Shown here in pieces: positions 12,838-17,581 of a stretch of DNA of 33,113 nt. The position numbers were made by a program, and so were the translations under genes. Where the stretch lies: positions 1 through 33,113 of the forward strand of contig JAJSAH010000014.1 of NCBI GenBank assembly GCA_024274875.1. The letters are read 5' to 3'. Positions within the stretch are counted from its first letter, which is position 1. Each line of letters begins with the position of its first letter. The notes under the pieces are model-generated. The model made no database searches. It was not told the DNA's origin and saw only the letters and a list, made by a program, of their open reading frames with translations. Origin of the DNA: an archaeon (lineage in GTDB: Archaea; Micrarchaeota; Micrarchaeia; CAILAH01).

Positions 12838-13242
12838 ATGAAATGGGAGACTATTGCGGAGTTTTCGTTTATCTGCGGAGTTCTGCTTGCATTCATTGTA
12901 GGAACTATGCATTCCGGGAACGAAAATTCATACAATTTGCTTATGGTGCTGGGCAGCATAGTAGGGCTTATAAACATATTCGACACGGAACTGGGAAGAT
13001 TTACTAACGCGCTGGTCGTAATAATTATATCTGCGATAGCATTTATTGTGCTTGGTTGGGTGAGCTCAAACCCGATGCTCATATTCTTCAAGGACCTGTC
13101 TATGGCAATCGCGCTGTTCACTGCCCCAGTTGCGTTCATAGGGGCAATCAAAGAGGTATACAACATAATGATTGAGTACAAGAACAAGAAAAACAAAACC
13201 AGGCACAGCAAGAAAAGGGTGTCAAGGAAGAAGAGAAGATAA
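12838..13242 (+). CDS. Small four-helix membrane protein of unknown function
   Basis: 134 residues from ATG 12838, which has GGTG five bases before it; an adjacent ATG at 12835 is only two bases away. Four hydrophobic segments are visible (about 8-23, 34-48, 59-77 and 86-106). They are followed by a strongly basic cytoplasmic tail rich in Lys and Arg (KNKTRHSKKRVSRKKRR). I do not recognise a named family. It follows serS by 32 bases and may be co-transcribed. The basic tail suggests nucleic-acid or acidic-lipid contact, but that is a guess. Its 3' end overlaps ksgA on the other strand by 21 bases. Confidence 0.6.
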   Translation: MKWETIAEFSFICGVLLAFIVGTMHSGNENSYNLLMVLGSIVGLINIFDTELGRFTNALVVIIISAIAFIVLGWVSSNPMLIFFKDLSMAIALFTAPVAFIGAIKEVYNIMIEYKNKKNKTRHSKKRVSRKKRR

Positions 13243-13989
13243 TTTTTTACCTAATTTTATTATTTGGGCTTCATCTAATTCAAACACTCTCTTTGAACAG
13301 TCCATCCCTAATTCCCTGCATAAATCCTCCGCGCTGGAGTTCAAACTCTTCTGCTTAATGATTAGGTTTAGCGTTGCTCTAATAGATTTCAGCCTGTACT
13401 GAAATAGGTTTGTTATGAATTCTTCAACCGAAAGGTCAAGCCTGCGCGCGTTCCTAATAGAAATCTCCATAAGAGTCGAATCAACTTTAGGCATTGGGGA
13501 AAACATCGACCTGGAGATGTTAAACACCCTCTTTATGTTAAAATAATATGATGCAAAAAATGACATGCGCGAACGCTTATTGCCTTTAGCGATGAGTTTT
13601 GCGGCAAACTCTTTCTGGTACATGATGTATGCGCGCTTAAATTTCCAATCCAACAACCTGAATGTGATCTGAGAGGATATGTAATATGGTATGTTGCCTA
13701 TTATATAATCAACCTCTAAACTGCCAGGAGGAACATCAAGAAAATCAGCGTTTATAATATGAACATGCGGATTGCAAGAAAACTTAGCGCGCAAAAGCTC
13801 TGCGTATTCTATATCCTTCTCAACTATGTGCAATTCAGATGCCCTGCGCGCAAGCCGTTCAGACAACCTGCCGTCTCCGCCACCAATCTCTAAAACCTTG
13901 CTCCCAACAGGAATCAAAACAGCTTCAGCATTAAGAACATTGGAGTTGGATAAAAAATGCTGCCCAAGATGTTTCTTTCGGCGCATCAT
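13222..13989 (-). CDS. ksgA: 16S rRNA dimethyladenosine transferase KsgA/RsmA
   Basis: 255 residues. It has the family start KKHLGQHFLSN, the SAM motif VLEIGGGDGRLSERL (32-46), the acidic SAM contact IVEKDIEYAELL and catalytic motif IV NIPYY (99-103), where NLPYY/NIPYN is usual. It dimethylates two adjacent adenosines near the 3' end of 16S rRNA as a late check of small-subunit assembly. It is last gene of the L21e-rpo4-DUF655-ksgA operon; its ATG overlaps the DUF655 stop as ATGA, so translation is coupled. Confidence 0.95.
   Translation of the reverse strand: MMRRKKHLGQHFLSNSNVLNAEAVLIPVGSKVLEIGGGDGRLSERLARRASELHIVEKDIEYAELLRAKFSCNPHVHIINADFLDVPPGSLEVDYIIGNIPYYISSQITFRLLDWKFKRAYIMYQKEFAAKLIAKGNKRSRMSFFASYYFNIKRVFNISRSMFSPMPKVDSTLMEISIRNARRLDLSVEEFITNLFQYRLKSIRATLNLIIKQKSLNSSAEDLCRELGMDCSKRVFELDEAQIIKLGKKLSSLLP
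13243..13248 (+). terminator. T-run terminator after the serS unit
   Basis: Six T residues directly follow the stop codon of the plus-strand membrane protein, the pattern archaeal RNA polymerase uses for intrinsic termination. They lie inside the 3' end of the convergent ksgA gene. Confidence 0.4.
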
Positions 13990-14561
13990 CTATACCTTGA
14001 AGGCCTAACAAATAAGTAATACTTGGACCCATGCAACTCTTCCTCTATCCTCTGGGCAAGGAAATCAATTAGCTTTGTTATGCGTATGCGCTTCTCGATG
14101 TCCGCAAAACTCTCAAAAGGCCTCTTCCCTCTCTCTTCAAGAATTGCATTCATAGTCCTTTTTCCGATGCCAGGAAGCAGTTCTAATTGGTGCAAGCGTA
14201 TGTTAACAGGGCCGCACCTATTAAAGAAATCTATGAATTCCTGCTCCCTCTTGCGTATGATATTCGAAATTACATCTCTCAAACTGCTTTTTGAAGCAGA
14301 TGTAAGGTCTGCAAACGAGACCCTACCCCTAATACTCCCAATCTTTTCTCTTTCATCCTTGCCAACATACACTCTCTCACCGATTGAAAAGTTGGCGCCC
14401 ATCTTTGGGTATGCTTCAAGCAGAGTGAAGAACTTCTCTCCAATAAGCTGAACAACTGGCTGCCTGCGCGGATCGCTCGATTTGCCATACGGCAGGAAAT
14501 CCAGCACGTATGCGTATTCTTCCATCTGCTTCTCCCTAAAGGGGCGTTCTCTTCTCTGCAA
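13986..14561 (-). CDS. DUF655 family protein with helix-hairpin-helix
   Basis: 191 residues of the archaeal DUF655 family. An N-terminal OB-like part (EEYAYVLDFLPYGKSSDPRR onward) is followed by a helix-hairpin-helix segment LHQLELLPGIGKRTMNAIL and a second helical repeat. It is a predicted RNA- or DNA-binding protein kept next to ksgA and rpo4 in many archaea; its biochemical role is not established. The start is TTG at 14561, supported by GGTG exactly five bases upstream and by the lack of an earlier in-frame start close to the rpo4 end. Confidence 0.88.
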   Translation of the reverse strand: MQRRERPFREKQMEEYAYVLDFLPYGKSSDPRRQPVVQLIGEKFFTLLEAYPKMGANFSIGERVYVGKDEREKIGSIRGRVSFADLTSASKSSLRDVISNIIRKREQEFIDFFNRCGPVNIRLHQLELLPGIGKRTMNAILEERGKRPFESFADIEKRIRITKLIDFLAQRIEEELHGSKYYLFVRPSRYR

Positions 14562-14572
14562 AAAATCACCTA

Positions 14573-14905
14573 TTACAAATTAGAAATTATACCTAAAAGC
14601 TCTTTAATCTGAGCATTAGTCAAATCGCGCTTCTCCTGCTGAAAAATCAATGCAACTTCTTCTTCCGTCTTAGGAACTAAATCGACCAGCTTAACAGCCA
14701 TTGCCTCTGAAACATAAGGGAGCTCAATAAGTTTGCCTATCAATTCCTTCGATTTCTCATAGCTTAGATTAGAGTGCTTCACGGCATATTCCAATGCTTT
14801 TTTCTGCTCAAAACCTAGCTCGCCGTCTTTCTCCCTTTCGCTGAGTATCTTTGAAACTTCTGCAAGGCACACTACTCTGCTATCCCTTATCTCCTTGCCA
14901 AACAT
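14573..14905 (-). CDS. rpoF: RNA polymerase subunit Rpo4 (RpoF)
   Basis: 110 residues, the size of archaeal Rpo4/RPB4. Marks are a beta-strand start (DSRVVCLAEVSKIL), a helical KKALEYAVKHS region and the HRDC-like C-terminal half with DLVPKTEEEVALIF and IKELLGII. With Rpo7 it forms the polymerase stalk that contacts nascent RNA and TFE. ATG at 14905 is chosen because GGTG lies five bases before it; GTG at 14911 would remove that spacing. It begins two bases after the L21e stop. Confidence 0.92.
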   Translation of the reverse strand: MFGKEIRDSRVVCLAEVSKILSEREKDGELGFEQKKALEYAVKHSNLSYEKSKELIGKLIELPYVSEAMAVKLVDLVPKTEEEVALIFQQEKRDLTNAQIKELLGIISNL

Positions 14906-14907
14906 AT

Positions 14908-15183
14908 TCACACCTTCTCCAAATGAACAGAGCCGGATATTAAAATCTTCTCTGCATTCCCATCTCTTATTTTAACCCTGTATGACCTGCCCTGCTTGCC
15001 AACAATCACTCCATGCCTGCCCCTGTACCTGGGGTGCGGCATGCCTGAGTGGCCTGGCTTCAAGCTTATAACTACTCTGTCTCCCTCGTTGAACTGCTTA
15101 AAGATAGCTGTCACGCCAAGCTTCTTTGCAGATTTAAGCTTTCTTGTATACGACGAATATGTGCCACGAGACCTCTTAACCAT
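14908..15183 (-). CDS. rpl21e: Ribosomal protein L21e
   Basis: 91 residues, basic. It matches L21e along its length: RSRGTYSSYTRKLKSAKK start, then FNEGDRVVISLKPGHSGMPH and RYRGRHGVIVGKQGRSYRV. It is a large-subunit protein and the first gene of the operon with rpo4, DUF655 and ksgA, an order kept in many archaea. Divergent from the TBP gene. Confidence 0.96.
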   Translation of the reverse strand: MVKRSRGTYSSYTRKLKSAKKLGVTAIFKQFNEGDRVVISLKPGHSGMPHPRYRGRHGVIVGKQGRSYRVKIRDGNAEKILISGSVHLEKV

Positions 15184-15224
15184 GCTAACAACCCTTATAC
15201 CTAATCATAGTTAGCGTGAAATAC

Positions 15225-15234
15225 ATTTTTAAAG
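15225..15234. promoter_or_regulatory. TATA-like element midway between rpl21e and the TBP gene
   Basis: ATTTTTAAAG lies in the middle of the 95-base divergent gap, 47 bases from the rpl21e ATG and 49 from the TBP ATG. Both genes would have short leaders; the TBP leader would carry AAGGTG at 15268-15273. A second stretch, ATTTAAAAAG at 15261-15270, is too close to the TBP start to serve it. Confidence 0.45.
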
Positions 15235-15278
15235 TTATTTAGCCAATCATTTTACAGAAGATTTAAAAAGGTGTTAAT

Positions 15279-15569
15279 ATGCCGAAAAAAAAGAAGAGAA
15301 TACCGCAACCGAAGTTTAGGATTGAGAATATCGTTGCATCAGCCAGCTTGAATGTAGAGCTTGATTTATACTCCATCGCAATGGAAGTGGATGATGTTGA
15401 GTATGAGCCGGAGCAGTTCCCAGGAGCAATACTGAAACTGCACAACCCAAAGGCATCACTGCTGTTGTTCAAGAATGGAAAAATCATATGCACGGGAGGA
15501 AAAAGCGAAGAAGAAGTTAGGAATGCAATAAAACGCGCAATAAAGATTCTTTCTCCCTACATAAGATAA
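15279..15569 (+). CDS. tbp: Single-repeat TATA-binding protein
   Basis: 96 residues, about half of a normal archaeal TBP (roughly 180). A basic tail KKKKR precedes one complete TBP repeat: RIENIVASASLNVELDL, then EYEPEQFPGAILKL with intercalating F47, then LLLFKNGKIICTGGK with F64, and the long C-terminal helix. It ends in TAA with no second repeat downstream, where the opposite strand already codes for deoxyhypusine synthase. The start resembles the usual first repeat and EYEPEQFPG is typical of the second, so a homodimer could rebuild the saddle with all four Phe. GGTG lies five bases before ATG. A second tbp elsewhere cannot be excluded. Confidence 0.9.
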   Translation: MPKKKKRIPQPKFRIENIVASASLNVELDLYSIAMEVDDVEYEPEQFPGAILKLHNPKASLLLFKNGKIICTGGKSEEEVRNAIKRAIKILSPYIR

Positions 15570-16487
15570 TTATTTTTTCAATTTTTCGTGCAAAGAAAGG
15601 GCCAGCAAGGGAAACAGCATTGAATAATCGCCCCATACAAAGGCATGTTTGCTGTCCGCTCTAACCTTCCCCCAGCTTATTCCTTCTCTTGGGAATGCGC
15701 TACTTATCGAAGCATCCTGCTCGGTTCCAGAGCTTATGTACACTGCATAATCAAGACCCTCCCTTAAAAGATTCACGCCTATTGTATGGTGTTTAATCAT
15801 CCCCCCGCCAAGAATTAACGCGCCAGTCTTATTGGCACTGAGAACAATATTCGCAAGTTCCTTCATATCCGCTGTGGCATCAACTGAAAACTTCGGATGC
15901 CTCTGTTTGTGCATATACAACTGAATCCCAAGCGCGCCGTCGGTTATCGCAGGGCAGAATACTTTCGCCCGTGAATCAGCGCACGCTAAAAGGAATGAAT
16001 TCTTGTCTTCTATGCGCGAGGAGAGGGCAGTTATGAGCTCGCTCGGTGAAATCACTGCATCGCCAAACGATTCAAGAATGGGCCTGACAAATGATTCAAA
16101 CTCCTCATATCTCCCATTCGGAACAAATATGTTTCCAATCCTGTTAATGCCCTTCTTCCTGAGCATAGAGTCATTAACATTAAAACTGCCTATGTAAAAA
16201 TTGCCGAACGATTTCATAACATCCTCTTCGATCGCGCCAACTGTAGTTATAATTGCATCTGGTTTTGCATCGCGTATGAACTGCGCAGCAATCTCTCTTA
16301 ATCCAGAACTTATTACAGTTGATGTGAAAGAGAAGAAAAATGTAACTTTTTCATCAATCATGCGCTCAAGAAGTTCATCAGCAATAGAGAGGTTGGTTGC
16401 CTGTATCCCAATACCTCTGTACTTAACCATGAGATCGCTGATAGAACGCACTGAATCGAGGTCAAACCCTTCTACTCTCCGCTCCAT
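15570..16487 (-). CDS. dys: Deoxyhypusine synthase
   Basis: 305 residues. Family marks are the NAD-site segment FFSFTSTVISSGLREI, TTVGAIEEDV, GALILGGGMIKHHTIGVNLL and the catalytic region AVYISSGTEQDASISSAFP followed by ISWGKV with the active-site lysine. It transfers an aminobutyl group from spermidine to a lysine of aIF5A, the first and in archaea often only step of hypusine formation. The frame is open to 16559, but ATG at 16487 starts the conserved region and has a TATA-like element 26 bases upstream. Its stop directly abuts that of the TBP gene. Confidence 0.94.
   Translation of the reverse strand: MERRVEGFDLDSVRSISDLMVKYRGIGIQATNLSIADELLERMIDEKVTFFFSFTSTVISSGLREIAAQFIRDAKPDAIITTVGAIEEDVMKSFGNFYIGSFNVNDSMLRKKGINRIGNIFVPNGRYEEFESFVRPILESFGDAVISPSELITALSSRIEDKNSFLLACADSRAKVFCPAITDGALGIQLYMHKQRHPKFSVDATADMKELANIVLSANKTGALILGGGMIKHHTIGVNLLREGLDYAVYISSGTEQDASISSAFPREGISWGKVRADSKHAFVWGDYSMLFPLLALSLHEKLKK
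15573..15586 (+). terminator. Double T-run after TBP gene
   Basis: Two runs of T (six at 15573-15578, five at 15582-15586) follow the TBP stop codon within 17 bases, consistent with intrinsic archaeal termination. They overlap the 3' end of the convergent deoxyhypusine synthase gene. Confidence 0.45.
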
Positions 16488-16508
16488 GATTAAAAAAAGA
16501 ATGCAAAG

Positions 16509-16518
16509 AATAAAAAAC
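16509..16518. promoter_or_regulatory. TATA-like element between dys and the MscS gene
   Basis: AATAAAAAAC sits in the 50-base divergent gap, centred 26 bases from the dys ATG (16487) and 25 from the MscS ATG (16538). It is placed to drive leaderless transcripts in both directions. A further A/T stretch (16530-16537) lies directly at the MscS start. Confidence 0.45.
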
Positions 16519-16537
16519 ATCCTGCGCAATTTTAAAC

Positions 16538-17581
16538 ATGGATATCCAATATATCGCAACCTTAGTAAGCCAGGACAATTACCTAGCAGGCATTACCGTA
16601 TTCCTTGCAATATTCCTCATATCAGGGATATTTAAAAAAATTGTGCTGTTTCGACTGAAACAAATAGCAAGCAAAACAAAAACAGACGTTGACGATCTCA
16701 TGGTAGAACTTATCGAGAAAATTGGATGGCCGTTTTACTTCGCATTTGGAACATATTTTGGAATAGCAGTTACCGATGCTCCCTTAATACTGAAAGATGT
16801 GGCGTATGGATTGGTTGTGCTGGCTGGAGTGTATTATGTTTCGAGAATCATCGGAAAAGTAATCGATTACACGCTGAAAAAATATGGAGAAAAGAGGGGA
16901 GATAGAGATTCATCGCTTCTGGAACTTATTGCAAACATCTTGAAAGCAACAGTGTGGATGCTTGCAATAATAATCGTGCTGCAAAATTACGGGTTTGAGA
17001 TAAGCGCGCTGATTGCTGGGTTGGGTGTCGGCGGAATCGCTGTCGCATTCGCAGTGCAGAACATACTCAGCGATATTTTCTCATCATTCTCCATATATTT
17101 TGACAAGCCGTTCAAGAAAGGAGATTTTATCGTTGTTGGAGATGATTCAGGGACTGTCGAGAGAATAGGGCTTAAATCAACAAGGATTAGAACTCTGCAA
17201 GGGGAAGAACTAATCGTGTCGAACAAGGAATTAACAGAAGCAAGAATACATAATTATAAAAGAATGAAAAAGCGTGCAGTGATATTCAGATTTGGGGTGG
17301 CGTATGAAACCCCAACTGCAAAACTGGGCAAAATACCTAAAATTGTGAAGAACATATTTGATGGCATTGAACTGGCACAGTTGAGCAGAGTGCATTTTAA
17401 AGAGATGGGAGATTTCAGCCTCATATACGAAGTGATGTACTATGTGAATACAAGCGATTATGTCAAATACTTGGATATACAACAAAATGTGAATATAGAA
17501 CTCAAAAAACGGTTTGAAAAAGAACGCATAGAGTTCGCATATCCAACGCAGACAATATTCTTAAAAAAATATTCTGCTTAA
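16538..17581 (+). CDS. mscS: MscS-family mechanosensitive channel
   Basis: 347 residues. Four or five membrane segments occupy about 15-185. The pore-lining helix has the Gly/Ala pattern of MscS (IAGLGVGGIAVAFAVQNI), then DKPFKKGDFI begins the beta domain, with a cytoplasmic C-terminal vestibule (RVHFKEMGDFSLIYEV region). It releases solutes when membrane tension rises. Length is typical of archaeal members. The ATG is likely leaderless. The tRNA-Thr gene follows after 33 bases. Confidence 0.93.
   Translation: MDIQYIATLVSQDNYLAGITVFLAIFLISGIFKKIVLFRLKQIASKTKTDVDDLMVELIEKIGWPFYFAFGTYFGIAVTDAPLILKDVAYGLVVLAGVYYVSRIIGKVIDYTLKKYGEKRGDRDSSLLELIANILKATVWMLAIIIVLQNYGFEISALIAGLGVGGIAVAFAVQNILSDIFSSFSIYFDKPFKKGDFIVVGDDSGTVERIGLKSTRIRTLQGEELIVSNKELTEARIHNYKRMKKRAVIFRFGVAYETPTAKLGKIPKIVKNIFDGIELAQLSRVHFKEMGDFSLIYEVMYYVNTSDYVKYLDIQQNVNIELKKRFEKERIEFAYPTQTIFLKKYSA

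Follow-up and report, generated by a model that had tools for sequence, protein, structure and literature searches.

A single-lobe TATA-binding protein likely serving as the general TBP of a Micrarchaeota archaeon

A Micrarchaeota archaeon encodes a TATA-binding protein (TBP) of only one lobe. We consider it likely that this protein is the working general TBP of the organism and forms its saddle as a homodimer, and that the one-lobe form is ancestral in the phylum, two-lobed TBPs and pairs of separate one-lobe genes (A and B) being later duplications. TBP is needed for almost all archaeal and eukaryotic transcription, and the textbook protein consists of two fused lobes, which derive from a duplication before the archaeal/eukaryotic common ancestor. 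The gene described here lies in a stretch of 33,113 nucleotides (contig JAJSAH010000014.1), hereafter the window.

The tbp gene is complete and encodes one lobe

The gene and its neighbors in the window are as follows.

13222..13989, minus strand: ksgA/rsmA dimethyltransferase, synteny anchor
13986..14561, minus strand: DUF655-like gene, synteny anchor, named from sequence and context, without an NCBIfam match
14573..14911, minus strand: rpoF, RNA polymerase subunit F/Rpb4, synteny anchor
14908..15183, minus strand: rpl21e, 50S ribosomal protein L21e, divergent neighbor and conserved synteny anchor
15279..15569, plus strand: tbp, one-lobe TATA-binding protein, 96 aa (Pfam; sole TBP match in the genome; AF2 model)
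15570..16559, minus strand: deoxyhypusine synthase, convergent with tbp, closing off any second lobe

The tbp frame runs from ATG to TAA and comprises a single complete TBP lobe. The Pfam TBP family (PF00352) matches it over positions 1–83 of 85, in one stretch only, at 104.4 bits (E 2.9e-30), well above the curated cut-off of 22.9 bits. The NCBIfam TBP models score 68–99 bits, below their cut-offs of 181–347, and the two tandem lobes per chain that characterize the canonical TATA-box-binding protein are absent, one lobe being followed by the stop. Standard annotation conceals one-lobe TBPs because such genes match "TBP" yet miss the full-length models. In a phmmer comparison, the protein was about equally similar to both repeats of the M. 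jannaschii TBP (first, 77.5 bits; second, 74.5 bits).

Inspection of the open reading frames and flanks on either side of tbp revealed neither a trace of a second lobe nor space for one, because deoxyhypusine synthase lies directly downstream, its stop beginning at 15570, the base right after the tbp TAA, and the rpl21e-rpoF-DUF655-ksgA cluster lies upstream, with 95 bases between rpl21e and the tbp ATG. The original prediction, made from the window alone, of a complete one-repeat gene with both intercalating Phe, a natural TAA and no second repeat is confirmed by the extent of the Pfam match and by the adjoining opposite-strand gene.

The gene is the sole TBP match in its own genome and in those of close relatives

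The genome of the organism (833,113 bases, 24 contigs, 89.7% complete) contains one TBP match and, in keeping with the prediction, a search of the remainder yielded no full two-repeat TBP. The three other TBP-bearing genomes of its family (f1) likewise have one TBP match each, a one-lobe gene of 98–106 aa from stop to stop, in separate assemblies. When the four TBP-bearing f1 genomes were searched with a diverged B lobe as the query, only the window gene and its orthologues were found. Among the f1 genes, a dN of 0.04–0.06 alongside saturation at synonymous sites points to purifying selection on tbp. Most other Micrarchaeota families, as well as a second phylum (labelled Diapherotrites), carry the half-length gene too, closed genomes included; since the stop is kept in the three f1 relatives, the assembly error for which the prediction had allowed fails as an explanation.

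Classes were assigned to 41 relatives from match positions and frame lengths. By these assignments, 37 carry TBP: 21 have one-lobe genes only (a single copy, except in genus g17, where there are two or three), seven, all of family f4, have two unlinked one-lobe genes, and nine have a two-lobed gene. The class survey found exactly one TBP-domain match per genome with a match in families f1, f3, f5, f9, f11, f13, f15 (11 genomes), f16, f18 and f21 (36 genomes). The closed genome G066 (771,545 bp, one contig), from a family other than f1, has one one-lobe gene and no other TBP match. Fermentimicrarchaeum limneticum (CP058998), closed or complete, has three one-lobe genes and no two-lobed gene, and the closed f4 genomes G033 (952,257 bp) and G125 (989,838 bp) have two TBP matches each. 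For the second phylum, which was reached via locus L108, TBP was found in 13 of the 14 genomes searched, mostly one-lobed.

Several unusual TBP-like proteins were met alongside. One f4 genome, G137, has a two-lobed TBP (C43) beside two one-lobe genes, from contamination or gene transfer. Extra, very diverged one-lobe TBP-like proteins (25–29 bits to the seed profile) stand beside normal one-lobe genes in G042 (L179) and G141 (L177). In the second phylum, a 726 aa frame (L337, G303:C8:7500-12500) matches Pfam TBP at 237 bits in four stretches; after its four diverged lobes come an apparent transmembrane segment and a long tail, and the product is possibly a membrane-bound TBP-like protein. A 218 aa frame (L340, G310:C1:22500-27000) has two diverged TBP lobes after an apparent lipoprotein signal (LLAGC) and, if it is a secreted TBP-like lipoprotein, would be very odd. 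Some TBP lobes also bear long histone-H1-like tails rich in Lys, Ala and Pro, located at the C terminus in G303 (L336) and at the N terminus in G310 (L339) and G309 (L343). A viral contig (L352, IMGVR_UViG_3300000875_000007) has two same-frame one-lobe TBP ORFs with a single stop codon between them.

The locus is conserved and full-length TFBs are present

Where the flanks of Micrarchaeota loci extend far enough, tbp almost always adjoins rpl21e and is divergent from it. This holds for one-lobed, A-type and two-lobed genes, and the same arrangement occurs in many loci of the second phylum. Behind rpl21e, rpoF and DUF655 mostly follow; in f4 and f8, DUF655 and rpoF are turned round. B genes and extra one-lobe copies are located away from this locus. 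The shared locus makes the half-length gene a positional orthologue of two-lobed tbp, which argues for the same job. RNA polymerase genes are present in the genome of the organism, together with two TFBs, both of full length with a zinc ribbon and two cyclin repeats.

Key residues and the predicted fold match those of canonical TBP lobes

Three segments of the lobe bear on its function.

15324..15350, plus strand: first strand of the lobe, residues 16–24 (ENIVASASL), with eight of nine positions invariant among 26 one-lobe proteins (alignment A1)
15402..15425, plus strand: stirrup YEPEQFPG, residues 42–49, with intercalating Phe F47 and with E43 and E45
15468..15482, plus strand: FKNGK motif, residues 64–68, with the second intercalating Phe, F64

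The DNA-contacting Asn (N17) and the intercalating F47 and F64 are 100% conserved, and both Phe are so in all lobes compared. Two positions set these lobes apart from canonical TBPs: position 66 (N66) is invariably Asn in the Micrarchaeota and second-phylum lobes compared and Ser in canonical TBPs, and A50 is found in 95–100% of Micrarchaeota and second-phylum lobes (single, N and C), whereas canonical TBPs mostly have Leu or Met. In TBP, the first strand lies at the lobe-lobe seam and is thus a candidate self-pairing surface. As for TFB, a 2020 study reports that it is contacted by a pair of glutamates in the stirrup of the canonical C lobe (PMC7221094). By our mapping, E43 and E45 are the counterparts of these glutamates; they are 100% conserved in these lobes, so that each subunit could in principle take TFB.

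Based on the AF2 model (pLDDT 88), the protein adopts one TBP lobe, whose top matches in the PDB are TBPs and which superimposes on one lobe of solved TBPs with about 1.0 Å rmsd over 77–79 aligned columns. Similarly, a two-lobed relative whose lobes are 84% identical (L045) is modeled as a full TBP saddle (AF2, pLDDT 92), with a TM-score of 0.8–0.94 to the best-matching solved TBPs; a saddle is therefore the predicted outcome for lobes as alike as these. Compared with canonical archaeal TBPs (M. jannaschii 2Z8U, S. acidocaldarius 1MP9, P. woesei 1AIS), the window protein shares the fold of each lobe at about 1.0 Å rmsd, the DNA-binding Asn, both intercalating Phe, the TFB stirrup and the presence of full-length TFBs in the genome. 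In contrast, the canonical proteins are two-lobed and have N/C asymmetry, whereas the window protein is one lobe, 39–51% identical to canonical lobes, for which such asymmetry would be impossible in a homodimer.

Two-lobed TBPs of Micrarchaeota are re-duplications

A tree of 107 lobes was built from one-lobe, A and B proteins, the N and C lobes of two-lobed proteins, and canonical lobes. The lobes of Micrarchaeota and of the second phylum all group together (98/95), separate from the canonical ones. Within a protein, N and C lobes are 51–84% identical in two-lobed Micrarchaeota TBPs versus 29–56% in canonical TBPs. A clade of Micrarchaeota N with canonical N lobes is rejected (AU p = 0.0003), as is one of Micrarchaeota C with canonical C lobes (AU p = 0.002). 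Orthology of the two-lobed Micrarchaeota TBPs to the canonical N and C lobes is thereby rejected; here, a single lobe gave rise to the saddle anew. On an RNA polymerase tree (concatenated B′, A′ and A″, 1,759 columns, 72 genomes, FastTree, second phylum drawn outside), the two-lobed Micrarchaeota all come together in a single clade (SH 0.999) that lies within the one-lobe families. This indicates that the one-lobe TBP, common also in the second phylum, is ancestral in Micrarchaeota and the two-lobed form a later internal duplication.

Since a single clade of Micrarchaeota N lobes is rejected as well (p = 0.005), either the duplication happened more than once or the lobes underwent gene conversion. 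The fused lobes of two second-phylum genomes, 82 and 89% identical, are a further re-duplication. In family f19, the two-lobed TBPs of G152 and G161 (L256, L257) have an intact N lobe and a degenerate C lobe (about 45–51 bits); here, N/C asymmetry is re-emerging. A different outcome is seen in the sister families f4 and f8 (RNA polymerase tree), where unlinked A and B one-lobe genes, 46–60% identical, occur in all f4 genomes with genes retrieved and in several of f8. The B proteins make up a single clade (100/99), seen in these two families only. Here, the gene was duplicated into two diverged one-lobe proteins, which probably pair with each other as a heterodimer. The reading from the window alone was right about the one-lobe TBP and missed its age and spread, the secondary re-duplications and the two-gene families, for which relatives were needed.

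The origin of the one-lobe form itself can be read in two ways, which the original prediction had held equally possible: a secondary loss, or a likeness to the ancestor of TBP. The lobe tree, sampled from Micrarchaeota, the second phylum and canonical lobes, tilts the balance to the first. Canonical C lobes fall on one side (100/85), and the single lobes fall beside the canonical N lobes, next to Sulfolobus N (94/83); moreover, D29 of the one-lobe TBPs is the N-lobe state. On these two observations, a normal TBP that lost its C lobe is the more probable origin. The alternative is that the one-lobe TBP predates the TBP duplication and was kept in Micrarchaeota and the second phylum, the canonical form having arisen after the split. 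It would agree with the one-lobe state inferred for the ancestor of Micrarchaeota and its frequency in the second phylum, and placing these lobes outside a clade of canonical N lobes, at a cost of only 5.3 log units, is not rejected (AU p = 0.34). However, besides the best tree and D29, the presence of canonical two-lobed TBPs in crenarchaea, euryarchaea and eukaryotes speaks against such a relic, which we regard as unlikely. It concerns origin and is compatible with the homodimer mechanism; if true, living cells still run on the ancestral TBP homodimer.

A homodimer is the most economical working form

Given a sole conserved TBP and a canonical TFB, a homodimer would be the most economical mechanism. 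Two identical one-lobe subunits would pair edge to edge into the usual saddle, which would bind and bend the TATA box through two Phe pairs (F47 and F64 of each subunit), and the YEPE stirrup would recruit full-length TFB; dimerization, DNA binding and TFB contact are here all predicted. As the two halves would be identical, TFB and its BRE, rather than TBP, would have to set promoter direction.

Against the homodimer stand the 10% of the genome that is missing and the chance that a very diverged partner lobe escapes Pfam, as lobes of that kind occur in G042 and G141. A heterodimer would accordingly have its second lobe in the missing tenth or beyond detection, on the model of A and B in f4 and f8, whose unlinked gene pairs and the extra diverged lobes just mentioned are its precedents. 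However, none of the four TBP-bearing f1 genomes has a second match, even with the B-lobe query, the closed G066 has A only, and B is confined to the two sister families; we therefore judge a hidden partner improbable.

The TATA boxes were considered as a further line of evidence. Genes in the genome of the organism (G000) are preceded, at a distance of about 30 bp, by TATA-like boxes with a palindromic 8-bp core; a motif forced to be symmetric loses 2.8 of 115 log units (p = 0.93). The boxes are flanked upstream by an A-rich stretch, a candidate BRE. The core is asymmetric in the two-lobe G015 (p = 0.003) and in a pooled f4/f8-like set (p = 0.00002). The pooled two-lobe set is symmetric as well (p = 0.72), so TATA symmetry does not discriminate the homodimer, no TATA motif was found in the haloarchaeal plasmid control, and G066 carried no information on symmetry. 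Although G000 shows the sign expected, symmetry was thus set aside as proof and is taken as consistent with a homodimer. In the tbp-rpl21e gap (15184–15278), a box TTTTTAAA occupies 15226–15233; its distance to the start of tbp is 53 bp and to that of rpl21e about 50 bp. It reads TTTAAAAA on the other strand and so could serve both divergent genes.

A single lobe might also act as a monomer on half a TATA site, with TFB supplying the remaining specificity and bending. The full-length canonical TFB would suit this reading, as would the need of many archaea for TFB to obtain a stable TBP-DNA complex (review PMC7289017) and the single TBP lobe of RNase HIII, which contacts duplex nucleic acid (PMC7221094). 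However, the first strand is almost invariant, the G000 motif is a full palindromic core and not a half site, and the re-fusion of two near-identical lobes in relatives suggests that these were paired beforehand; a monomer is accordingly a distinctly poor candidate. Finally, a TBP cut short by misassembly, a stop error, a frameshift or decay, conceivable in a draft of 24 contigs, is ruled out for practical purposes by the same length and stop in three independent relatives, the low dN despite synonymous saturation, and the half-length gene in many families and closed genomes with conserved synteny.

Relation to known TBP-domain proteins

The existence of one-lobed archaeal TBPs is already known. 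Brindefalk 2013 reportedly mentions archaeal single-lobe ("monopartite") TBP-domain proteins. A 2020 study mentions them too (PMC7221094), and the window protein resembles them as a one-TBP-domain protein of an archaeon. As far as these texts are accessible, they note existence alone, and the sole-TBP, phylum-ancestral, gene-pair and re-duplicated states are not stated there. A DPANN survey lists TBP simply as conserved (PMC8407392). No paper pairing Micrarchaeum with TATA-binding protein was found, and the literature searched yielded no description of a sole-TBP state across a phylum, the A/B split or the replayed duplication.

The single-copy TBP domains of RNase HIII and RnlA likewise use one TBP-type lobe for duplex nucleic acid binding (PMC7221094). 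Unlike the window protein, they sit in multidomain enzymes, and the L5 aromatic is Tyr or His in RNase HIII and RnlA and Phe in the window TBP; RNase HIII is absent from the well-scoring structural matches of the AF2 model. Haloarchaeal and viral TBPs (plasmid TBPs, IMG/VR contigs) belong to the same family as the window gene but are two-lobed, with 30–43% N-C identity, and are not close to it. A viral origin of tbp was rejected, as the IMG/VR and phage TBPs are two-lobed, except for the one contig with two one-lobe ORFs in one frame, and not close.

Collectively, whole families of Micrarchaeota appear to run on one TBP lobe, sister families on two separate lobes, and others on re-fused, near-identical lobes. 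The phylum thus offers living stand-ins for the steps of TBP evolution: homodimer, heterodimer and fused saddle. The role of N/C asymmetry in TBP is now testable, as is the question of whether a symmetric TBP can leave promoter direction to TFB and the BRE.
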